Assembly: GCF_013003985.1 (NCBI RefSeq)
Contig: NZ_CP053073.1
Span: forward strand, 1,922,001-1,986,000
DNA length: 64,000 nt
DNA from: Usitatibacter palustris
GTDB taxonomy: Bacteria > Pseudomonadota > Gammaproteobacteria > Burkholderiales > Usitatibacteraceae
Direction of reading: 5' to 3'
Part shown: one piece after another, positions 36,049 to 49,380 of the stretch
Layout: every line of letters starts with the position of its first letter
Numbering within the stretch: position 1 is the stretch's first letter
The notes under the pieces: model-generated
The model's database searches: none
What the model saw: only the letters and a program-made list of their open reading frames with translations
What the model was told of the DNA's origin: nothing
Translations under genes and position numbers: made by a program

Positions 36049-36831
36049 TTGGCTGTGCACATTGAAGCCTACTTCGACGAGTCTGGGACTGACGGGAAGT
36101 CTCGGCATCTGTGCGTCGCGGGCTACATCTTCGATCGCGATCGATGCGCAGAAATGACTTTCAAGTGGTCCAGGATGCTGAGTGAATTTCAGCTTCCCTA
36201 TTTCAGGATGTCGCAATGCGCTCCGGACCCGGGCAATGGCCCTTTCGCGCGCCTATCAAAAGCCCAACGGATTGACGTCGCGACTAGGGCGATCGACCTT
36301 ATCAAGTCGCACGCGATTCAAGGAGTGGCTGTTTCCGTAGACAAGCGGTTCGCACATCTGATCCCCACGTACGGCTACTACAGGAGTCCGTATACATTCG
36401 CCTGCTGGCACGTCCTGATGGCGGTCAGGCGGTGGATGCAGAAAGCGCACTTCAAGGGTGACGCTTCGTATTTCTTCGAGGATGGACATCAGAGTCAGGG
36501 AGAAGCCCATCGACTCATGTCCGCAATATTCGCCGAGCCACTACTCAAGGCAGCCTATCGGGCTAGTTCCTTTGGCTTCGGAAAGAAAGAAGAAATGCGA
36601 CCGCTCCAATGCGCAGACATTTATGCGTGGCATTGGTCGAAGAGGCTGAAGAACCTGGATCGTGGCATCTCCAAGCATCGTGCCGATTTCAACAGCCTTC
36701 TCGACATTGCGCACCTTGGATCGCACTACGACGAAAAGATGATTCTGTCATTTCCAGAAACCATCAAGCAGTTGCATGCCTATCAACTCGAGGTAGGAAG
36801 ACGGTACAGCGGCGGCTTCCATGCCTACTAG
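36049..36831 (+). CDS. DUF3800 domain protein
   Basis: About 260 residues. The N-terminal AYFDESGTDGKSRHLCVAGY motif (Asp-Glu pair) and the late LQCADIYAWHWSKRL block (Asp) are the signatures of DUF3800, a predicted RNase H-like fold often found in mobile or defence-linked DNA. No catalytic role is proven. The start is TTG at 36049 or GTG two codons later; neither has a clear ribosome-binding site. GC content and codon use look lower and less biased than in the flanking genes, suggesting acquisition. It is followed 22 nt later by an antitoxin-like regulator. Confidence 0.75.
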   Translation: MAVHIEAYFDESGTDGKSRHLCVAGYIFDRDRCAEMTFKWSRMLSEFQLPYFRMSQCAPDPGNGPFARLSKAQRIDVATRAIDLIKSHAIQGVAVSVDKRFAHLIPTYGYYRSPYTFACWHVLMAVRRWMQKAHFKGDASYFFEDGHQSQGEAHRLMSAIFAEPLLKAAYRASSFGFGKKEEMRPLQCADIYAWHWSKRLKNLDRGISKHRADFNSLLDIAHLGSHYDEKMILSFPETIKQLHAYQLEVGRRYSGGFHAY

Positions 36832-36853
36832 GAAGGTATCCAGCGGAGGCGAC

Positions 36854-37147
36854 ATGCCAAGGACAACGAGCACGCGTTACGATGTAGCCGATCATCTGCG
36901 CACGCCAAAAGAGATGGCCGCATATCTCGAAGCTAGCCTTCAGGAGGCGGATGGGGACGCGGCGCTAGTCGCGAAGGCGCTTGGTGACATCGCGCGAGCA
37001 AGAGGCATGTCCCAAGTCGCGCGAGAGGCCGGTTTATCGCGCGAGAGTCTCTACAAAGCGCTGTCTGGAGATAGGAACCCAGACTTCGAGACTGTCTTGC
37101 GCGTCATGAACGCCCTAGGAATCAAGCTGCGCGCGGAGCCGGTGTAG
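36854..37147 (+). CDS. Addiction-module antidote-type HTH protein (HI1420-like)
   Basis: A 97-residue XRE-type helix-turn-helix protein: YDVADHLRTPKEMAAYLEASL at the N-terminus, then GDIARARGMSQVAREAGLSRESLYKALSG and NPDFETVLRVMNALGIKL. This is the pattern of the downstream component of HI1419/HI1420-type modules (antitoxin). The usual RelE/HigB-like toxin gene upstream is absent; DUF3800 occupies that place. It may be an orphan antitoxin or part of a different pair. The ATG at 36854 is preceded by AGCGGAGG. Confidence 0.8.
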   Translation: MPRTTSTRYDVADHLRTPKEMAAYLEASLQEADGDAALVAKALGDIARARGMSQVAREAGLSRESLYKALSGDRNPDFETVLRVMNALGIKLRAEPV

Positions 37148-39347: not shown

Positions 39348-41294
39348 TCAGTGTTGGGTCGTGCTGGCCGGTTCGAGGGCCTTGGCCCGGGCGTACTGGG
39401 CTTCCGGTGACTTCAGGATGCGTTCGATGATCTGGTTCGCCTTGGCAAGCGTCGAGGTGTTCTTTCGAGTGACGCCTTTGAGCGTGTCGAGGTCGGCCCC
39501 CCCGGCTACCTGGATGGACTGGATCACGTCCTTGAAGGCGATCACGAGCTTCGGATCGAACTGCTTTCCCGAGAGTGCCATGACCTCGAGGAGCGCCACG
39601 TCGATCGTCGCGGCCTCGTGGTACGGGCGGGTCTGGATCAGCTCATCGAAGGTGTCGGCAATGGCGACGATGCGGGCGGCCTCGGGGATCGCTTCGCCCT
39701 CGAGGCGCCGCGGGTAGCCCGATCCGTCCCACCATTCGTGGTGGTGGAGGGCGATCTCTGCGGCGAGGCGCAGGGTTTGGTCTTCGCTCGATCGCCCGCT
39801 ACCCATGATGCTTTCCGCGGATGCAAGGATGTCCGTGAGCATGGTGCAGCCTTCGAGGGCGTGCCGGCGGATGATTTCGGTCTCGGTCGGTGTGAGCTTC
39901 CCGCGCTTCAGCAGTACGACGTCGGGCACTGCGAGCTTGCCGATGTCATGAAGTCGGGCGGACATGTCGAGGACAGCGGCACGCTTTTCATCGTAGCCGA
40001 TGCTCTTGGCGAGCATCCTCGACAGCCAGCCGACACGGGCTGAATGCTCGCCGCTTGAGACCTCACGAAGCTCGGCGAGGGTGGCAAGCGATTCGACTTG
40101 GCCGAGAAGTTCCTTGCGGTGTCGGCGATTCTTGGCGCGGGAGATCAGTCCTGCACGAGCTTCAAGGGGGAGGGGAGCAACCAAATTGTGGGTAACTTCA
40201 GTTCCGGCCCGGACGGATCGCTGGAGCGCTGCCACTTGTTGAATCGCAACGGATCGCTGCCAAGCGGATAGGCATCGCAGGTGCTCTTCGTCGTACGGGC
40301 GGCCCTCCTGTCCACTTAGCTTGCGACAAAGGCTCATGGTTTGGAGGTAATCGCGATAAATAGGCTGGTCGTGGGGAATGGTGCTTTCCATGCCTGCCAG
40401 CAACTCCAAGCCACCCCCTTTGCCCTCCGCGGTGGACAACAGTGTTTCAGCAAGTGCCAAGTGAGTTCTTGCGGAAGCACTTTCGGCTCGTTGCGCCTGC
40501 ACGCGCACCGCCTCGACTTCGCGACGGGCATCGTCAAACCTGGCAAGCCGCACGTAGATCCTCGCTGCTGTCGCGTGGCGGATGGTTGCCTGCCAGATCC
40601 AGAACGAGGTTTCGGGAGGCTGCGCAGTCTTGTTGGCTAGTTCAACGCTTGTCGCTGCGCCTTCAAGGTCGCCGAGAATCTCGAGTGAGGCAGCAATGTT
40701 GTGATACGCAACAGACATTATCGCTTGACGCATCGGCTGTCCCGTACACGAGGCTACTACGAACCTATTCAGGGCTATGACCTCATCCAGCAGGCCAATA
40801 TCAAACTTGGTCGACGATAGATTCGAAAGAACGGCACAGAGGCCGAGGGCGTCTCCAGTACGCTGTGCGATTTCTGCAGCCTCGCCCAAGGAAGCAATCG
40901 CTTTGGTAGTACAAAGCTGCTTGGTCTGCAAAGCACCCATCACGTTTAGCGATCGACGCAGCGAGGCTTCCGCGCCTGAGCTGCGAGAAAGCTCGATTGC
41001 TGACTCCATCAACGTCTCTGCTGTGGCGAGTTCCCCTTTGTTGAAATACCACTCGAACGTCAGTATCAACAAATCGACTCGTTGCGCGGGAGCGACAACC
41101 GTACGTATTGATAAGAGCTGCTTGCTGAGTTCTTCGAACCACGCACCGCTCTTTGCCTGGTCGGCGTCCCTCATATGTGAGGTAGCTTCAACCGCCAGTT
41201 CGACGAGTACACGACGTAACGTCGGTTCGTCGCCACTGTGAAGCGCTTGGAAGCCTTCAGTCGGGTCCGGCTGATCGAGGCGGCTAGGCAGCAT
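39348..41294 (-). CDS. TPR-HD-GYP protein, downstream of the peptide genes
   Basis: 648 residues. The first roughly 370 are helical repeats of the TPR type (for example SLNVMGALQTKQLC and LGLCAVLSNLSSTKFDIGLLDEVIALNRFVV). The HD-GYP domain follows (about 405-600): GEHSARVG, RLHDIGKLAVPDVVLLK (about 448), HALEGC, LHHHEWWDGSGYPRRL (about 525) and IADTFDELIQTRPY. All metal-ligand positions look intact, so c-di-GMP hydrolysis is expected. It is closely related to the second TPR-HD-GYP gene at 42196. It is transcribed in the same direction as, and after, the three peptide genes; GAGGTG lies 6 nt before the ATG. Confidence 0.9.
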   Translation of the reverse strand: MLPSRLDQPDPTEGFQALHSGDEPTLRRVLVELAVEATSHMRDADQAKSGAWFEELSKQLLSIRTVVAPAQRVDLLILTFEWYFNKGELATAETLMESAIELSRSSGAEASLRRSLNVMGALQTKQLCTTKAIASLGEAAEIAQRTGDALGLCAVLSNLSSTKFDIGLLDEVIALNRFVVASCTGQPMRQAIMSVAYHNIAASLEILGDLEGAATSVELANKTAQPPETSFWIWQATIRHATAARIYVRLARFDDARREVEAVRVQAQRAESASARTHLALAETLLSTAEGKGGGLELLAGMESTIPHDQPIYRDYLQTMSLCRKLSGQEGRPYDEEHLRCLSAWQRSVAIQQVAALQRSVRAGTEVTHNLVAPLPLEARAGLISRAKNRRHRKELLGQVESLATLAELREVSSGEHSARVGWLSRMLAKSIGYDEKRAAVLDMSARLHDIGKLAVPDVVLLKRGKLTPTETEIIRRHALEGCTMLTDILASAESIMGSGRSSEDQTLRLAAEIALHHHEWWDGSGYPRRLEGEAIPEAARIVAIADTFDELIQTRPYHEAATIDVALLEVMALSGKQFDPKLVIAFKDVIQSIQVAGGADLDTLKGVTRKNTSTLAKANQIIERILKSPEAQYARAKALEPASTTQH

Positions 41295-41470: not shown

Positions 41471-41614
41471 CTAGGCGATCACTACCGTCACGTCTCCACC
41501 GCCAATCATTGCCAGTTCATCCACGGTAAGCGGCTGGAACTCGACAATCGGCTCGCTGAGGCCCGTTATCGCGGAAATGCGTTCGTCAATCACTCTCACC
41601 ACACCGGGAATCAT
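41471..41614 (-). CDS. Double-glycine leader peptide precursor, third of three
   Basis: A 47-residue precursor. It ends PLTVDELAMIGGGDVTVVIA. Placing GG at residues 39-40, the canonical double-glycine leader positions are all matched: Leu -12, Thr -11, Glu -8, Leu -7, Ile -4, Gly -2, Gly -1. Cleavage would release DVTVVIA. An ATG five codons upstream is possible, but the inner ATG has GGGAG at 8-nt spacing and gives the same 47-residue length as both sister genes. The first 27 residues differ almost completely from the sisters. The exporter with a C39 peptidase is encoded 2.6 kb away. Confidence 0.85.
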   Translation of the reverse strand: MIPGVVRVIDERISAITGLSEPIVEFQPLTVDELAMIGGGDVTVVIA

Positions 41615-41634
41615 CGCTTGCGCTCCCATGGTGA

Positions 41635-41778
41635 TTAGGCGATCACGACGGTAACGTCACCGCCGCCAATCATTGCCAGTTCATCCACCGTCAGAGGCTG
41701 AACCTCGCTCCCCAGTTCGTTGAGGTCCGCAGTCGTACGGTCGTCATTCGTAATCGTATTCGTCAGATTCGCGATCAT
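41635..41778 (-). CDS. Double-glycine leader peptide precursor, second of three
   Basis: A 47-residue precursor aligning without gaps to its two neighbours. The first 27 residues (starting MIANLTNTITND) are unlike the others. The last 20 are identical to the third copy: the leader end LTVDELAMIGGG followed by DVTVVIA. It starts after AGGGGA and stops 20 nt before the third copy, so the two are one transcript. The predicted secreted product is the heptapeptide DVTVVIA. Confidence 0.85.
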   Translation of the reverse strand: MIANLTNTITNDDRTTADLNELGSEVQPLTVDELAMIGGGDVTVVIA

Positions 41779-41867
41779 TTCAATGTCCCCTATGGAAATA
41801 GCTTGCGCGCACTATTTGGATTGAGTCCTCAATCGAGCTGGCCAAGAGCTCGTCCGAGGCCGTGTAA

Positions 41868-42011
41868 CTAGCCGATCACAACGGTGACGTCGCCGCCGCC
41901 GACCATGTCCAACTGGTCGCTCGTCAGCGGCACCACAGCCGATTCGTCATGCACCACTTGAGCTTGTTCGGAAAGATCGCGAATCACGTTTGCCTTTTGG
42001 TTCGTAGACAT
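41868..42011 (-). CDS. Double-glycine leader peptide precursor, first of three
   Basis: A 47-residue precursor beginning MSTNQKANVIRD and ending LTSDQLDMVGGG plus DVTVVIG. It has the same length and the same leader geometry as the other two, with conservative changes (Gln for Glu at -8, Val for Ile at -4) and Gly instead of Ala at the very end. The start is supported by AAGGAGG 9 nt upstream, the strongest ribosome-binding site of the three. As first gene of the run it is next to the divergent control region before the second TPR-HD-GYP gene. Confidence 0.85.
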   Translation of the reverse strand: MSTNQKANVIRDLSEQAQVVHDESAVVPLTSDQLDMVGGGDVTVVIG

Positions 42012-42103
42012 CGAATACACCCTCCTTTTTGGGTTTACCAAGAGAAATGCCGCACGCACAGAAAGATTTATTGCGTACTAACAGACCGCATTTGGAATAG
42101 CTG

Positions 42104-42195: not shown

Positions 42196-44130
42196 GTGCT
42201 GACCGTTGAGCGCGCGCAGGAACTGGGTCTAGTGGGTTTGGTTTCCGCACTAGATGGTGCGGATCACGACGCCTCTCGCCAAGCACTGTCCGACCTTGTG
42301 GAAGCTGTGAGAGGTCGCCTCACACTCAATGAGCGGCCTGATCGTGAGTGGTTTGATGTCGTTTCGGACCTGCTCTTGCGAAGTGGCGGCGAGAATGCAC
42401 CTGAACTTCGTGTTGACTGCCTCTTGCTCTTTGCTGAGTGGTACTTCAAGGAAGGCAAATGGGCTGCTGGCATATCGGTAGCCGAGAAGGCTGCTGGGAT
42501 CGCCTTACATGCAGGGGCTCTGTCGCATTTGCGTCGCGCATACATGCTCCTCGGCATACTTCAAAGCCGTTGCAAGGACATCGCGCAAGCGACTGTCTAC
42601 TACGTGAAAGCACTTGAAATTGCCGAGCGCATATCCGACCGGGTCGGACAGTGTGTTGTGATTGGAAATCTCGCTTCCGCGCGTTGCGAGGCGGGTTTGC
42701 TCGAGGAATCAATCACGCTCAGCAAGTACGTGACTACGCTGCCTGGGGACGAGCCAACGGTCTTGGCCGTGAAGAGGTCCGCGCATCACAATATCGCGTT
42801 AGTGTCTTTGATCCTCTCTGATCTGGAGTCCGCCTTAGAGCACATCGAAATCGCGGCATCTTTGGCTCCTGAACCTCGAACTCAATTCGAGGCATATCAG
42901 CGGGTCATCTTGGAACTGACGTACACGAAGATTCTTGTCCGTATGGGGCGCGCACCTTTTGCGCGCGAGCGTGTGGCGCTAGCCGCGATGTACGCCGAGA
43001 AGGCAAAAAGTAGGCCAGCTCAAATACAGGCCCAACTCGCCGAGACTCTGTGCGACGCCGCGGATCAACGGACCGACATTGCCCTGACTCGTCTCGAGAA
43101 ACTGAAGGCAGAAGTTCGCAACAGCGAACCTGCCTTGCGCGACATCCTAGAGGTTGAGGTCCTGTGCAATAGTTTTGCGGGGCGGCATCGTGATGCCAAG
43201 CACTATCACCAGAAGTATCTGGCCCACCTCGCCGAATGGCAGAGAAAGACCGCGATTCAGCAGGTCGACGCTCTCCGGCGTTCGTTTCTGAAGCGAGGAA
43301 GCGTTACTCCTGACGAACTTACCGTCCTACCTGACGAGATCTTGGATCGCCTGCGCGATTCCAATGAGGGCGCTATCCGCTGGGAGAGTTTTCAATCTCG
43401 GCTTGAAACCCTCGCTGTCCTCGCGGAGCTTCGTGACGATTCCACGGGTGAACATTCCTTTCGCGTTGGGCGTATGGCCGCCATGCTTGCACGCCGCATC
43501 GGCTATGACGAGAAGCGGATCGCAACCTTGGAACTTGCCGCACGCCTTCACGACATCGGCAAGCTCGCCGTGCCTGACGTCGTTCTCCTGAAAAAGGCCA
43601 GCTTGACGCCCGCCGAACTCGATGTCATGCGTCGCCACACAACTGAGGGAGCGCAGATTCTCACCGACGTTCTCACGGGCATGGACCGCGAGACCGTGCC
43701 GCCGTCCAAGAAGGGAGGGTCATTTCGGCTCGCTGCCGAGATAGCGCAGCATCACCACGAATGGTGGAACGGCGAAGGGTATCCGCGTGGGGTTGCGGGC
43801 GAGGCGATTCCGGAAGAGGCGCGCATTACCGCGCTTGCGGACGTCTTCGACGCGCTGACCCACGTGCGCCCGTACAAGGAAGCCTGGACGATCACGCAAG
43901 CGCTTAGGGAGATCGAAGGACTCTCGGGTCGCCAATTCGATCCGCGGCTTTGCGCTGAGTTCTTGCGGCTCGTGGTGGAATTGCACGAGACGCACGAGGC
44001 GGACCTTGATGCTTTCCTTGGCGCTGAGGCCCGAACTTCCCCGCTGGTCTCCGCCAACCGAGTTCTCGGCCGGATCATGCGATCGGCGCTGCGTTCAGAT
44101 ACCCGGAACTACCCCACCGGTCCGGTCTAG
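42196..44130 (+). CDS. TPR-HD-GYP protein, divergent from the peptide genes
   Basis: 644 residues, paralogous along its whole length to the gene at 39348. The N-terminal roughly 370 residues are TPR-like helices (LLLFAEWYFKEGKWAAGISVAEKAAGIA, RRAYMLLGILQSRC and others). The HD-GYP domain has GEHSFRVG, RLHDIGKLAVPDVVLLK (about 451), HTTEGAQIL, QHHHEWWNGEGYPRGV and LADVFDALTHVRPYKE, all intact. It starts with GTG and has no strong ribosome-binding site; a tiny ATG-DVLC-stop reading frame overlaps that GTG. The 3' end overlaps the convergent exporter gene by 36 nt. TPR domains are the peptide-binding part of RRNPP regulators, hence the proposed receptor role. Confidence 0.9.
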   Translation: MLTVERAQELGLVGLVSALDGADHDASRQALSDLVEAVRGRLTLNERPDREWFDVVSDLLLRSGGENAPELRVDCLLLFAEWYFKEGKWAAGISVAEKAAGIALHAGALSHLRRAYMLLGILQSRCKDIAQATVYYVKALEIAERISDRVGQCVVIGNLASARCEAGLLEESITLSKYVTTLPGDEPTVLAVKRSAHHNIALVSLILSDLESALEHIEIAASLAPEPRTQFEAYQRVILELTYTKILVRMGRAPFARERVALAAMYAEKAKSRPAQIQAQLAETLCDAADQRTDIALTRLEKLKAEVRNSEPALRDILEVEVLCNSFAGRHRDAKHYHQKYLAHLAEWQRKTAIQQVDALRRSFLKRGSVTPDELTVLPDEILDRLRDSNEGAIRWESFQSRLETLAVLAELRDDSTGEHSFRVGRMAAMLARRIGYDEKRIATLELAARLHDIGKLAVPDVVLLKKASLTPAELDVMRRHTTEGAQILTDVLTGMDRETVPPSKKGGSFRLAAEIAQHHHEWWNGEGYPRGVAGEAIPEEARITALADVFDALTHVRPYKEAWTITQALREIEGLSGRQFDPRLCAEFLRLVVELHETHEADLDAFLGAEARTSPLVSANRVLGRIMRSALRSDTRNYPTGPV

Positions 44131-46191
44131 CCGCACCACGCGGTCCGCGCCCGCCGCGCTGTCGGGGCGGTGGCTCACGATCACCAGCGTCACTCCCGTG
44201 CCGGCGATGTGCTTGGAGATCTCCACTTCCAGCGGCAGGTCGAGCTGGTCGAACGCTTCATCCAGGAAGATCAGCTTCGGCTGCCGGTAGAGCGCGCGGG
44301 CGAGCAGCACCCGCTGCTTCTGCCCGCCTGACAGCGCCGCACCCAGGCTCCCCACGATCGTGTTGTAGCCCATGGGCATCTTCGAGATGTCCTCGTCGAT
44401 CATCGCGACCTTCGCGCACTCGCGCACCCGCGCCGGGTCGTGGTCGGGGTCGAAGAAGCTCACGTTGTCCTCGATCGTGCCCACGAAGAGCTGGTCGTCC
44501 TGCATCACCGCGCCGATGCGGCCGCGGTACTGCGCCATGTCCCAATCGCTGAGCAGCCGGCCGTTCACGCGCACCTCGCCCTCGGTGGGCGGCAGCAGGC
44601 CGAGCAGGACCTTCAGCAGCGTGGTCTTCCCGCACCCCGAAGGACCGACTATCGCGATCGATTCGCCCGGCTGCACGCTGATGCTCACCCCGCGGAAGAC
44701 GAAGCCCTCGGGCCCGTACGCGTAGCCCACGTTCTTCGCTTCGATCACGAGCGGGCCGGCAGCGGTCTCGCCAGGCAGTGCGGGCTTCGAATGCTCCTCG
44801 TCTGCAAGCGCGATGTCGGCGATGCGCTCGGCATGCAGATCGAGCATCCGGAAGTCGTTCCACTTGTCCACAAGGTTCACGACCCGCGTGAGGAACACGA
44901 CCTTGAAGCCGATGAATGCGTAGAGCATGCCCACGGTGAACTTGCCGTCCATCACCGCGATCGCTCCGATCCAGATCACGATCACGCTTTCCAGCCCGAA
45001 GATGAGTCCATTCGCCGCGCGCTGGGCGATACCCACGTTCTGCACGCGCACGCCGGCGTTCGTCTGGTCGACCACGAGGTTCTGGTACGACGAGCGCCGC
45101 TCCGACTCGCGCAGGTTCAGCTTGATCGCCATCATCCCGCGCAGCGTCTCGATGAAATGCGTGGACGAGCGGGCTTCATGCGCAAGTTGTTCATCCGTCG
45201 CATACCGCTGCGGGTAGAAGAACGTCCAGCGGGCCGCGGCGTAGAGGAGGGCGCCGCCCACGACCACAAGCGTCATCGTGAGGCTGTAGTAGCTCATCAC
45301 GAGGACGGTGAGGATCACCATCACGCCATCGACCGCGGTCTCCACGAAAGTCGTCGTCAGCGTCCGCTGGATCGCGTCCACGCTCCTGAACTTGGAGACG
45401 ATGTCGCCGATATTCCTCTTCTCGAACCACGCGAGCGGCAGCCGCACCATGTGCGCGAAGAGCGTGGTGAGGAGCTTCATGTTCACGTGGGTGGAGAGAT
45501 ACACGCCCACCCAGGCGCGCACGGCGGTGACGGCGACGGAAATCACGACCAGCACGCCGAACGCGAGGCCCAGCACCGTGAGGAGATCGCGGTCCCGCCC
45601 CACCAGCACGCGGTCCACCACGAGCTGCAGGAAGAAGGGCATCGCGATCGCGAACACTTCGAGCGCGAAGGAAAGCAGCACGATCTGCGCGATCGTCCCC
45701 TTGAAGCCCGACGCCACGCTCAGGAGTTGCCACGAGCTCACCTTCTCGCGCTCGTCCTTCTGCTGGAACGCGGCAGTCGGCGTGAACTCCATCGCGACCC
45801 CGGTGAAATGCTTGGACGCTTCGTCGAACGTCAGCACGCGTTTGCCGCGAGCCGGGTCGTGCACGACCATGTTGCGGCCCGACACCTCGACCAGCACGAC
45901 GAAGTGATTGAGGTCCCAGTGGAGGATCGCGGGCAGCTGCAGCTTGCCGATCGATTCCAGCGACACCTGCACGCCGCGAGACGACAGCCCCATCGCTTCA
46001 CCGAGCTGCGCGATGTGCTTGAGCGTGATCCCCTTCAACGACGGCGAAAGGCGCACGCGCATCGATGAGACATCGGTGAGGTGCCCATGCGCGGAAGCGA
46101 TCATCGCGAGGCAGGCGATGCCGCACTCGGGCGCCTCGCTCTGGAGGATCACCGGCACGCGGCGCTTGAAGAGGCTCGGGAACCAGGCCAT
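44095..46191 (-). CDS. C39-peptidase ABC exporter for double-glycine peptides
   Basis: A 698-residue PCAT-type exporter. The N-terminal C39 protease has catalytic Cys in QSEAPECGIACLAMI, His in HWDLNHFVVLVEV and Asp in VHDPARG, so it should be active. Transmembrane helices occupy about 160-430. The nucleotide-binding domain has Walker A GPSGCGKTT, signature LSGGQKQRVLLARAL and Walker B LIFLDEA. Such proteins cleave a GG leader while exporting the cargo. The ATG overlaps the HlyD stop (TGATG). The natural cargo candidates are the three precursors at 41471-42011. Confidence 0.94.
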   Translation of the reverse strand: MAWFPSLFKRRVPVILQSEAPECGIACLAMIASAHGHLTDVSSMRVRLSPSLKGITLKHIAQLGEAMGLSSRGVQVSLESIGKLQLPAILHWDLNHFVVLVEVSGRNMVVHDPARGKRVLTFDEASKHFTGVAMEFTPTAAFQQKDEREKVSSWQLLSVASGFKGTIAQIVLLSFALEVFAIAMPFFLQLVVDRVLVGRDRDLLTVLGLAFGVLVVISVAVTAVRAWVGVYLSTHVNMKLLTTLFAHMVRLPLAWFEKRNIGDIVSKFRSVDAIQRTLTTTFVETAVDGVMVILTVLVMSYYSLTMTLVVVGGALLYAAARWTFFYPQRYATDEQLAHEARSSTHFIETLRGMMAIKLNLRESERRSSYQNLVVDQTNAGVRVQNVGIAQRAANGLIFGLESVIVIWIGAIAVMDGKFTVGMLYAFIGFKVVFLTRVVNLVDKWNDFRMLDLHAERIADIALADEEHSKPALPGETAAGPLVIEAKNVGYAYGPEGFVFRGVSISVQPGESIAIVGPSGCGKTTLLKVLLGLLPPTEGEVRVNGRLLSDWDMAQYRGRIGAVMQDDQLFVGTIEDNVSFFDPDHDPARVRECAKVAMIDEDISKMPMGYNTIVGSLGAALSGGQKQRVLLARALYRQPKLIFLDEAFDQLDLPLEVEISKHIAGTGVTLVIVSHRPDSAAGADRVVRLDRTGGVVPGI

Positions 46192-47438
46192 CAGAGGCGG
46201 CTCTTCAGTTGCAGGATGGGCTCGAACAGCCACTCGATGAGCGTTCTCTTCTCGAGGAGGAGATCCGCGTTCACGAGCATGCCGGGGCGAAGCGCGAACG
46301 TCTGCCCGAGTGCGGCGACATCCTGGCGATCGAGCTTCACGTCCACGCGGTAGACGGGTTCCTTGGCGGCGAGGGGGCCGATCTTCTCGCCGGCGGACCA
46401 GACGTTGCGGCCGATGTCTGCAATGGTCCCGCGGTACTGGCCGAAACGCTCAAACGGAAACGCTTCATACCGCAGCACGACTTCCTGGCCCTTCTGCACG
46501 AAGCCGATGGCGCGCGTGGGCACGAGAAGCTCCACGTGCAGGCCGCTGCCGGTGGGGAGCACGGTAGCGAGCGTGGCATCGGACGCTACCGACTGACCCA
46601 GCGTCACCGCAATGTTCGTGACCACGCCGCTCACGGGCGCGCGGATCACGTTCTCGCGCCGCGCTTCCACGTTCGCGAGGCCTTCCTTCAATTCACTCAT
46701 CTGCCGCGACACCTGGTCGGCCTGCGTGCGGGTGCGCAGGCGAATCGACGGCTCTTCCATCTTCGCGGCACCGAGGTCGCGCTCGACCTGCGAGCGCTGG
46801 CGACGCAGCGCCTGGAGCTTGATCTCCTGGTCGGTGACTTCATCCTGCTTTTGCTTGGCGGCGACATCGGAGACGAACTTCTCGCCGGCGAGCGATTTGT
46901 AGCGGTTCGCTTGTTCCTTGGTCGAGGCGACGCGCGTCTCCTGCAGCTTCATCTCACGGTCAACCTGCACGAGCTCGTTCTCGAGGTCCTTCACCTTGCG
47001 GCGAACCTGCTCGACCTGCTGGTCGCCGAGCTCCTTCCACTGCGACTGCTCCTTCTCGAGGCTGGCACGTCGCGACTCCATTTCCTTCGCGACCGCCTCG
47101 CCTGAAGAAGCGCCCGAAGCGGTCAGCCGCTCGATCGACACCTTGGCCATCGGGGCACCGGCGACGATCACGTCACCTTCCTTGATCAGCAGCTCATTGA
47201 CCCGGCCCGCATCGGAGATGAGCACGCGCGCCGCACCCTGGTCGAGCGCGAGGAAGCCATCGACGCGTTCGCGCCGCTGGTACTGGCCCCAGAGGGCGAC
47301 GGAGACAAGGAGGATCGCGATGCCGACGGCAAGCGCCGTGAAGACCCAGAAGGGCACGGGCCTCGCGATGATCGCCTCGCCGAGGTATTTCTCGCGTTGG
47401 GCGTCGATCGCCTCTTGGCGGAATAGTTGGCGTGGCAT
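46191..47438 (-). CDS. HlyD-family periplasmic adaptor of the peptide exporter
   Basis: A 415-residue membrane-fusion protein. One N-terminal membrane helix (VFTALAVGIAILLVSVALWG) is followed by a lipoyl-like half, a long coiled coil (about 100-250) and the second half with VIRAPVSGVVTNIAVTLGQSV and beta-barrel segments. It links an inner-membrane exporter to a TolC-type channel, which is not in this window. The start at 47438 gives a short basic N-terminus; a 249-nt longer frame upstream is rejected. It is translationally coupled to the C39 exporter. Confidence 0.92.
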   Translation of the reverse strand: MPRQLFRQEAIDAQREKYLGEAIIARPVPFWVFTALAVGIAILLVSVALWGQYQRRERVDGFLALDQGAARVLISDAGRVNELLIKEGDVIVAGAPMAKVSIERLTASGASSGEAVAKEMESRRASLEKEQSQWKELGDQQVEQVRRKVKDLENELVQVDREMKLQETRVASTKEQANRYKSLAGEKFVSDVAAKQKQDEVTDQEIKLQALRRQRSQVERDLGAAKMEEPSIRLRTRTQADQVSRQMSELKEGLANVEARRENVIRAPVSGVVTNIAVTLGQSVASDATLATVLPTGSGLHVELLVPTRAIGFVQKGQEVVLRYEAFPFERFGQYRGTIADIGRNVWSAGEKIGPLAAKEPVYRVDVKLDRQDVAALGQTFALRPGMLVNADLLLEKRTLIEWLFEPILQLKSRL

Positions 47439-47523: not shown

Positions 47524-49380
47524 ATGAAAAGCTTCACGCGCGCACTCGCGGTACTCGCGGTATCCCTTCTTTCACTCCACGCTAACGCAGTCACCACCAT
47601 CGTCAACGAGGCTTGGCCCGCCGGCCAGGTCAGGACGCTGGTCACGAACATCAACGGGCCGATAAACGGCCAGCAGACGTCGTTCACCGGCTATACCGCC
47701 GGTCCGTACAACTACGTCCTGTGGCCGTTCAAGGTGACGCAGACGGGCGTGTACACCGCCACGGCCGCGACGACGGGCGTTGCCGTGAACACCACCTGGT
47801 TCCTCAACGGGTTCTTCAGCCCGTCGAATACCGCGCCGACCACGCCGCTCAGCAGCTTCATCGTGGCGGTGTTGTCGCTCCAGTCCGCCTCGCCGTACGT
47901 CGGCACCTTCACGGGCATGACCTTCACGGCCGGGCAGCAGTACTCGATCCTCGTCGCCTTCAACTCGAACAGCATCGTGGGGGACTTCGCCACCGTCGCG
48001 ATTACCGGGCCCGGCTGCGTCATCATCGGGCCGGTCTTGTGCAAGCCAACCGAACCGCTCTCGCCGGCGGCGGTGGGCTCCGGAACGACGGCCACCGTGA
48101 CGTTTGCCGCACCCACGTCGGACGGTGGGTCACCCATTACCGGCTACACGGTCGTGTCCAACCCCGCGGGCGGCGTGGACAGCAACGCGGGCAGCACGAG
48201 CACCACACACGTGGTCACGGGCCTGACGTACGGCACGTCGTACACATTCACCGTGGTGGCAACCAACGCGCAGGGTTCGGGAGGCGCATCCCTTCCGTCC
48301 AATAGCGTTACGGCGATGGCGGTTCCGAACGCCCCGGCGATCGGCGCGGCCACACCCGGCAACGGCCAGGTGTCGGTCGCGTTCACCGCGCCCGCCGCGA
48401 ACGGCTCTGCGATCCTCGACTACACGGCGAACTGCGGCGGCACGACCGCGACCGGTGCTGGATCGCCGATCGTCGTGGCCAGCCTCGCGAATGGCACGCC
48501 CTACACGTGCACGGCGTCCGCAAGGAATGCCGTTGGAAACGGTCCCGCGTCCGCAGCGTCTGCGAGCGTCACGCCGTTCACGATTCCCGGCGCACCCGCG
48601 ATCCCGACAGTGACCCGCGGCAACGGCCAGCTCACGGTGGCCTTCACGGCGCCGGCTTCGAACGGCTCCGCGATCACCGGATATACCGTCAACTGCGGCG
48701 GCACGATTGCGACGGGCACCACGTCGCCGATCACGGTGTCGGGCCTCACGAACAGCACGTCGTATACCTGCACCGTGTTCGCGACCAATGGCGCGGGCAA
48801 CGGCCCGCCGTCCGCCGCTTCGGCGCCTGCGGTACCCGCGCAGAGCACTGCGAGCGGGGCGTCGGCCACAGGCACGGGCACCATCAGCGCGTCCTTCACC
48901 GGCGGCGGCGCGGCGTGCACCTTTGCGGTGGGCCAGTTCATTCCGCTGACGGGACACGCGGCGAGCCCGCCCAACGGCACCGCACCGGGAGCGACGACAT
49001 TCCCGCACGGGCTGTTCGACTTCCGCCTCACAGGCTGCACGCCGGGTTCGGCGATCACGATGACGGTCACGTATCCGGCGGCACTGCCTGCGGGATCCGT
49101 CTATTGGAAGTACGGACCGACGCCGTCGGACACCAGGCCGCACTGGTACACATTGCCGGCGACGATCGCGGGCACCACGGCGATCTTCACGATCACCGAT
49201 GGGCAACTGGGTGACGACGATCTCCTCGCCAACGGCACGATCGTCGACCAGGGTGGCCCGGGTGTTCCGGGTGCTCCGGGAACCGTAACGGCAGTCCCGA
49301 CGCTCTCCGAGTGGATGCTGATGCTGCTCGCACTCGTGATGCTGGGTTCCGTCGTCGTGATCCGGCGTCCTTCGAGGTAG
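47524..49380 (+). CDS. Fibronectin type III surface protein with IPTL-CTERM tail
   Basis: 618 residues. The signal peptide ends ANAV. After a unique N-terminal region (to about 175), three fibronectin type III repeats follow (about 180-440; TGYTV..., Y.C.V.A.N..GNG..S..S). A choice-of-anchor U-type domain (about 450-585; FPHGLFDFRL, VYWKYGPTPS, DDDLLANGTIVDQGGPG) leads to the IPTL-CTERM sorting signal (PTLSEWMLMLLALVML plus basic tail). Such tails are processed by dedicated sorting enzymes in betaproteobacteria; the protein is probably displayed or released at the surface. First of three tandem genes with the same tail. Confidence 0.85.
   Translation: MKSFTRALAVLAVSLLSLHANAVTTIVNEAWPAGQVRTLVTNINGPINGQQTSFTGYTAGPYNYVLWPFKVTQTGVYTATAATTGVAVNTTWFLNGFFSPSNTAPTTPLSSFIVAVLSLQSASPYVGTFTGMTFTAGQQYSILVAFNSNSIVGDFATVAITGPGCVIIGPVLCKPTEPLSPAAVGSGTTATVTFAAPTSDGGSPITGYTVVSNPAGGVDSNAGSTSTTHVVTGLTYGTSYTFTVVATNAQGSGGASLPSNSVTAMAVPNAPAIGAATPGNGQVSVAFTAPAANGSAILDYTANCGGTTATGAGSPIVVASLANGTPYTCTASARNAVGNGPASAASASVTPFTIPGAPAIPTVTRGNGQLTVAFTAPASNGSAITGYTVNCGGTIATGTTSPITVSGLTNSTSYTCTVFATNGAGNGPPSAASAPAVPAQSTASGASATGTGTISASFTGGGAACTFAVGQFIPLTGHAASPPNGTAPGATTFPHGLFDFRLTGCTPGSAITMTVTYPAALPAGSVYWKYGPTPSDTRPHWYTLPATIAGTTAIFTITDGQLGDDDLLANGTIVDQGGPGVPGAPGTVTAVPTLSEWMLMLLALVMLGSVVVIRRPSR

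Follow-up and report, generated by a model that had tools for sequence, protein, structure and literature searches.

What could three short open reading frames (ORFs) encode that lie in tandem between two genes for proteins joining a TPR domain to an HD-GYP domain? The question is raised by a stretch of 64,000 nucleotides from Usitatibacter palustris (contig NZ_CP053073.1, positions 1,922,001 to 1,986,000), hereafter the window, to which all plain coordinates refer. We consider it likely that the three ORFs are precursors of a peptide pheromone that would leave the cell through a C39 exporter, return to cells, bind the TPR-HD-GYP proteins and switch a phosphodiesterase of cyclic di-GMP (c-di-GMP). 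According to our proposal, the C39 domain of the neighbouring exporter would cut the precursors after GGG, and the ABC/HlyD exporter would secrete DVTVVIA and DVTVVIG. The heptapeptide would re-enter cells through an Opp/Dpp-type importer and occupy the TPR groove of the two proteins, A and B. Binding would then switch the predicted c-di-GMP phosphodiesterase of the HD-GYP part, activation and inhibition both being possible. Export, cleavage site, re-import, binding, c-di-GMP output and signalling between cells rather than to self are steps that we infer.

The three precursor ORFs

The original prediction had placed three minus-strand ORFs of exactly 47 residues each at 41471..42011, and they were found there, between the two TPR-HD-GYP genes (Table 1). 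The common length holds with the starts chosen in that prediction. In the raw ORF list, precursors 1, 2 and 3 measure 63, 47 and 52 amino acids (aa), the longer readings arising from an upstream GTG in copy 1 and an upstream ATG at 41629 in copy 3. The ribosome-binding context favours the 47-aa starts, with AAGGAGG at 42021-42027 upstream of copy 1 and GGGAG upstream of copy 3, whereas no comparable sequence precedes the 52-aa start of copy 3. With these best-supported starts, GGG occupies residues 38-40 in all three precursors.

Double-glycine leaders are characterised by Leu at -12, Glu/Gln at -8, Leu at -7, Ile/Val at -4 and Gly at -2 and -1. All three precursors have this pattern, the leader positions named originally being correct throughout: each leader ends in L-T-x-D-E/Q-L-x-M-I/V-G-G-G, followed by seven residues. 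Residues 1-28 vary among the copies. The final 19 agree well: copies 2 and 3 have the same sequence there, and copy 1 departs from it by five changes. The GC content around the locus is 0.556, versus 0.647 window-wide. Pfam, NCBIfam and PHROGs contained no family for the precursor peptides tested; two weak NCBIfam candidates were dropped, the CTB family bacteriocin at 14.2 bits against a cut-off of 32 and ATP synthase subunit B at 12.6 bits against one of 183. A promoter and terminator search gave no match.

Recurrence, cargo and codon changes in related genomes

The check proposed along with the original prediction, a look for short ORFs beside TPR-HD-GYP genes of relatives, turned up homologues: at 23 of the 31 TPR-HD-GYP loci scanned, the window counted, a precursor lies at most 1.5 kb away. 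Among the 28 genomes of the window's family, its own counted, 14 gave a TPR-HD-GYP match at E <= 1e-60, and ten of the 14 stretches retrieved combine C39-ABC, TPR-HD-GYP and one to six precursors, HlyD being matched in eight of these ten. No precursor was detected by motif at the remaining eight loci scanned (L038, L183, L184, L039, L040, L188, L189 and L145). Three TPR-HD-GYP genes among these (L183:8081-9997, L184:8571-10598 and L038:2995-4842) had no precursor detected near them, and it is possible that their products listen to another peptide. At L145:3108-3263, a precursor-like frame ending GGGSVAVAF lies beside C39 and TPR-HD-GYP and has no in-frame start codon.

ORFs with the precursor motif are concentrated near these genes. 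We counted 47 in the 153.8 kb within 1.5 kb of TPR-HD-GYP, versus 6 in the 443.4 kb that make up the rest of these loci (22.6-fold). The 78 generic HD-GYP loci gave 5 in 975 kb, a density about one sixtieth of that near TPR-HD-GYP. Because the peptides were already in view when the motif was defined and the loci are related, P values overstate independence. Two of the six matches elsewhere, ORFs of genome G018 beside C39, look real. The control derives from a scan of genome contigs by HD-GYP motifs, which gave 80 loci, 78 of them used; only L042 and L045, which lie outside the 31-locus scan, were relatives with precursors.

A profile (A1) built from the family precursors and those of the window matched 1784 of 7976 scored database candidates at E <= 0.01. 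Cargo length was 6-8 residues in all 120 matches listed and seven in 112 of them; one listed match is a protein named Usitatibacter sp. Across the order, A1 matched 8 of 399 genomes, every one in the window's family. Of the 22 places concerned, 21 are no more than about 1.3 kb from a TPR-HD-GYP gene; the remaining one (G018) adjoins C39 close to the end of its contig. At E <= 1e-80, the TPR-HD-GYP profile matched at least 15 of the 399 genomes (ten in the window's family, four in f38 and one in f20); these counts are lower bounds, since no more than three candidates were scored in each genome. At class level, with the same cut-off and the top three candidates per genome, no full-length match outside the window's genome was listed, and the listed matches outside it span just the HD-GYP half (positions ~305-611). 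The TPR part had no match among phage records.

In relatives the cargo is 6-8 residues long except in two longer cases, the ten-residue GGDVFVGTTH and DSTPNWQDPPTP. Within the family we found IGDTII/IGNTII, CGEVIMA, SGDVAFG, GGDVFVG and HGDVHVG, IGDVVFA, GGMVDLG, CGDVIWG/GGDIHWG/GGDIVWG/SGDTVWA, CGEVVFY, SGDVIF/AGDVIF and SAAVCF. Loci of other families (f38, f20) have precursors whose cargo is quite unlike: EIAVVGS (G249), EGLFNFQ and TGHGSGV (G220) and DVVQMGG (G149). Two Burkholderiales metagenome-assembled genomes add ESLTNCH and ESLTNTH (L042; treated as one contig with L271 and counted once, both having 8280 bases and the same peptides) and, from peat, YGTPAM (L045). In G403, which like G064 belongs to these other families, the cargoes are QAVMVFL three times, SLAVVEM, SLAIIEIY, SGIFVLA and SGIYLF; this genome (L277:470-5087, L176-L178) has five TPR-HD-GYP receptors, each with its own precursor type beside it. 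G064 encodes EAVGTTY five times plus EAVGSTY, and L179:10590-11401 contains six head-to-tail precursors at a spacing of 139 bases, five of them identical proteins and the last with EAVGSTY.

Genus g41 of family f38 allows a closer view, with a precursor-profile match at E <= 0.001 in 12 of 17 genomes. Its 13 cargo types all have seven residues and start with E (9) or D (4). They share 19% identity, versus 70% for the last twelve leader residues. ENAVNFL, EVVIGTK, ESLTNCH, EAVGSTY and TGHGSGV (the last not starting with D or E) were left out of this comparison.

Silent and replacement differences were counted between precursor copies within one locus, with copy pairs that are not independent, and Fisher tests were made for six loci. 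In the window's cargo, 8 of 18 silent sites changed, versus 2 of 45 replacement sites. The same contrast was seen in G403 (13/14.3 versus 0/48.7), G025 (15/26 versus 4/82), G023 (27/33 versus 12/93), and G009 (9/13 versus 2/41); G024 is a weak case (26/67.5 versus 49/247.5) and L042 is uninformative (1/4.7 versus 2/16.3). Counts at further loci were 2/5 versus 0/16 (L030), 1/4 versus 1/14 (L144) and 15/85 versus 5/230 (L179). The codon pattern thus supports translation of the precursor ORFs, and together with the recurrence near TPR-HD-GYP genes it led us to reject chance ORFs. One could argue that no selection acts on the seven-residue tail and that the leader is the functional product or the ORF has another role, and the strong cargo variation between species, as in g41, would suit this idea. 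Yet cargo changes are mainly silent in most multi-copy loci while leaders diverge, and length is mostly kept at 6-8 residues. Furthermore, the precursor P0131 (a separate 564-base contig) departs from the 52-aa reading of copy 3 at seven positions, all within residues 1-33, and matches it throughout the final 19, so that the cargo is identical. We therefore regard an unselected tail as very improbable.

Predicted receptors, exporter and a second system

Gene identities in the window were assigned with Pfam, and the starts of the exporter and HlyD genes were chosen by start comparison (Table 1).

Table 1. Features of the precursor locus (positions in the window)
Feature	Position	Strand	Length	Details
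Precursor 1	41868..42011	-	47 aa	leader 40 aa ending LTSDQLDMVGGG; cargo DVTVVIG, cargo codons 41871-41891
Precursor 2	41635..41778	-	47 aa	leader ending LTVDELAMIGGG; cargo DVTVVIA, cargo codons 41638-41658
Precursor 3	41471..41614	-	47 aa	leader ending LTVDELAMIGGG; cargo DVTVVIA, cargo codons 41474-41494
TPR-HD-GYP protein A	39348..41294	-	648 aa	same strand as and downstream of precursors; HDIGK, HHEWWDGSGYP, Asn158, Asn199 present
TPR-HD-GYP protein B	42196..44130	+	644 aa	divergent from precursors; HDIGK, HHEWWNGEGYP
C39 peptidase-containing ABC exporter	44095..46191	-	698 aa	length from likely start; ORF opens 46233
HlyD-type membrane fusion protein	46191..47438	-	415 aa	length from likely start; ORF opens 47687

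The receptors are predicted to form a Rap-like TPR superhelix. The modelled TPR domain (a model, not a solved structure) reached its top Z of 26.6 with Rap complexes, tied with APPBP2 and with MalT near; those top-scoring Rap receptors were crystallised with 5-7-residue pheromones. Foldseek ranked LGN first for the same domain. The model of protein B has seven TPRs counted within residues 69-365, and HD-GYP spans residues ~391-634. Among 35 TPR-HD-GYP receptors (579-681 aa), Asn158 is present in 32 and Asn199 in 33; by the repeat count of the model they fall in TPR3 and TPR4. Both asparagines are invariant in ten g41 receptors, whose identity is 59% over the TPR part and 71% over HD-GYP. The asparagine-bearing helices A3 and A4 are variable (0.51 and 0.50), A6-A7 less so (0.72 and 0.88). 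Helices N1, A1, B4 and B5 are equally or more variable (0.43-0.47), and variability therefore extends beyond the expected groove. This pattern fits fixed main-chain anchors combined with variable specificity residues, although it is no proof of them.

HD-GYP phosphodiesterases carry the motifs HDxGK and HHExxDGxGYP, which are exact in protein A, while in protein B an N replaces the D of the second motif. Hydropathy gave no transmembrane segment in A or B (peaks 1.32 and 1.17); a few of their relatives have borderline peaks of 1.6-1.85. There are 12 matches to SBP_bac_5, the Opp/Dpp-type binding protein, in the window's genome, none linked to the precursor locus. The lack of transmembrane segments, the lack of a linked importer and the adjacency of the genes would also suit a purely internal role of the TPR-HD-GYP proteins: within the producer they would bind a precursor or just its tail and monitor exporter status, with no signal passing between cells. 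A monitor of this kind would oddly be paired in g41 with cargo that differs while the leader is conserved. Equally odd for it are peptide/receptor pairs in which the retrieved stretch has no C39 gene, as at seven loci (L041, L143, L177, L178, L185, L186 and L187). We hold such a monitor to be unlikely.

The peptidase domain of the exporter can be aligned with two proteases of solved structure, LahT150 (6mpz) and PCAT1 (4ry2), and the positions of Cys, His and Asp, which we take to be the catalytic residues of the C39 domain, are kept. Two further C39 proteins are encoded elsewhere in the window's genome. The best NCBIfam match of the ABC protein is the NHLP bacteriocin exporter model TIGR03796, at 431.7 bits and below the cut-off of 853.3. 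This match, and the fact that bacteriocins typically come with double-glycine leaders and a C39 exporter, speak for small bacteriocins or precursors of ribosomally synthesized and post-translationally modified peptides, with the HD-GYP proteins acting just as regulators. On the other hand, the cargo has merely 6-8 residues, and some precursors lie beside a receptor gene with no exporter in the retrieved stretch. Moreover, no modification or immunity gene was noticed at the window's locus, the neighbours at other loci being partly annotated. Taken together, a bacteriocin function seems quite improbable.

Beside the HlyD gene, 47524-49380 (+) encodes a 618-aa protein with a choice-of-anchor U domain and an IPTL-CTERM sorting signal (NCBIfam). 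Further away, 36049-37147 (+) contains genes for a DUF3800 protein (36049-36831) and an HI1420-type addiction-module antidote (36821-37147).

A third TPR-HD-GYP gene lies 0.67 Mb off in the same genome (L041:9943-11682, minus strand), with a precursor at L041:8791-9015 whose cargo is DAGPNWP; this second set, L041:8791-11682, corresponds to C1:1289290-1292181. The receptor forms one clade with those of related loci in three other genomes (support 1.00), at which the cargoes are DSTPNW (the longer second copy being DSTPNWQDPPTP), DFEPEWP and DVTPDWP. Its gene is adjoined by a LuxR-type helix-turn-helix gene (GerE, Pfam; L041:9032-9943), and homologues of the latter, 42-46% identical, occupy the same place in the other three loci. 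HDIGK is altered to HDIGM in L041 and to HDIGL in the other three, and HHE to HHA in all four. Because of the altered HD-GYP residues and the adjoining LuxR-type gene, the output of the DAGPNWP branch may be transcription instead.

Relation to known peptide systems

Double-glycine precursors of a heptapeptide of RRNPP size, as seen in the original prediction, are supported by the exporter's C39 residues, the 6-8-residue cargo, the mostly silent changes and the Rap-like TPR model, with signalling as their putative function. The HlyD and C39-ABC genes as members of the locus, the DAGPNWP set and the differing cargo of relatives go beyond that prediction. Likeness to RRNPP/RRNPPA systems (Rap-Phr, NprR, PlcR, Rgg-SHP, AimR) lies in the short linear cargo, the small precursor gene directly beside that of a TPR protein and repeated precursor copies, as known for RRNPPA propeptides (PMC9765709). 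It may extend to the conserved TPR asparagines, an Asn binding the peptide main chain in RRNPP (PMC3601957), and to the modelled Rap-like fold. The SHP2-C8 peptide DIIIIVGG resembles DVTVVIG (PMC4162386). RRNPP belongs to Firmicutes, whereas the hosts here are likely Gram-negative. RRNPP precursors are exported by Sec or by PptAB (PMC10075063), in contrast to the double-glycine leader and C39 exporter found here. Receptors of 250-500 aa are described for RRNPP (PMC10075063); here they are longer, with HD-GYP following an N-terminal TPR domain in one protein. The system would work like RRNPP signalling, yet we do not class it there, because its receptors exceed that size range and its predicted export takes another route.

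Double-glycine peptides exported by C39 peptidase-containing ABC transporters (PCATs) include ComC/BlpC and ColV-type microcins, usually with a cargo of 20 or more residues. Our candidates share with them the leader motif and an exporter with Cys, His and Asp positions kept; they differ in the shorter cargo and in a predicted cytoplasmic TPR receptor instead of a histidine kinase. Vibrio RcbB, a TPR-GGDEF protein, likewise unites TPR and a c-di-GMP enzyme; its TPR represses the enzyme and a partner protein relieves repression (PMC12282931), whereas a peptide is proposed here. The locus is thus predicted to combine PCAT-exported peptides and TPR pheromone receptors, with c-di-GMP turnover as the third part.

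Literature searches at title and abstract level, mostly without subscription papers and bioRxiv, retrieved no description of such a system, and linear-peptide signalling via cytoplasmic TPR receptors is presented as a Firmicutes trait (PMC10075063, PMC13220807). On balance, we lean towards an undescribed kind of Gram-negative quorum sensing, with 6-8-residue double-glycine pheromones, Rap-like TPR/c-di-GMP phosphodiesterase receptors, several private channels per genome, words that differ between species of one genus and one branch with a LuxR-type regulator in the enzyme's place. If this is true, many unnamed short ORFs (the 1784 A1-profile matches) would be explained, and natural peptide/receptor pairs of known sequence would be at hand for specificity studies. 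A peptide word from neighbours would be converted directly into a second-messenger level, and this Gram-negative counterpart would link peptide quorum sensing directly, via c-di-GMP, to the switch between biofilm and motility.
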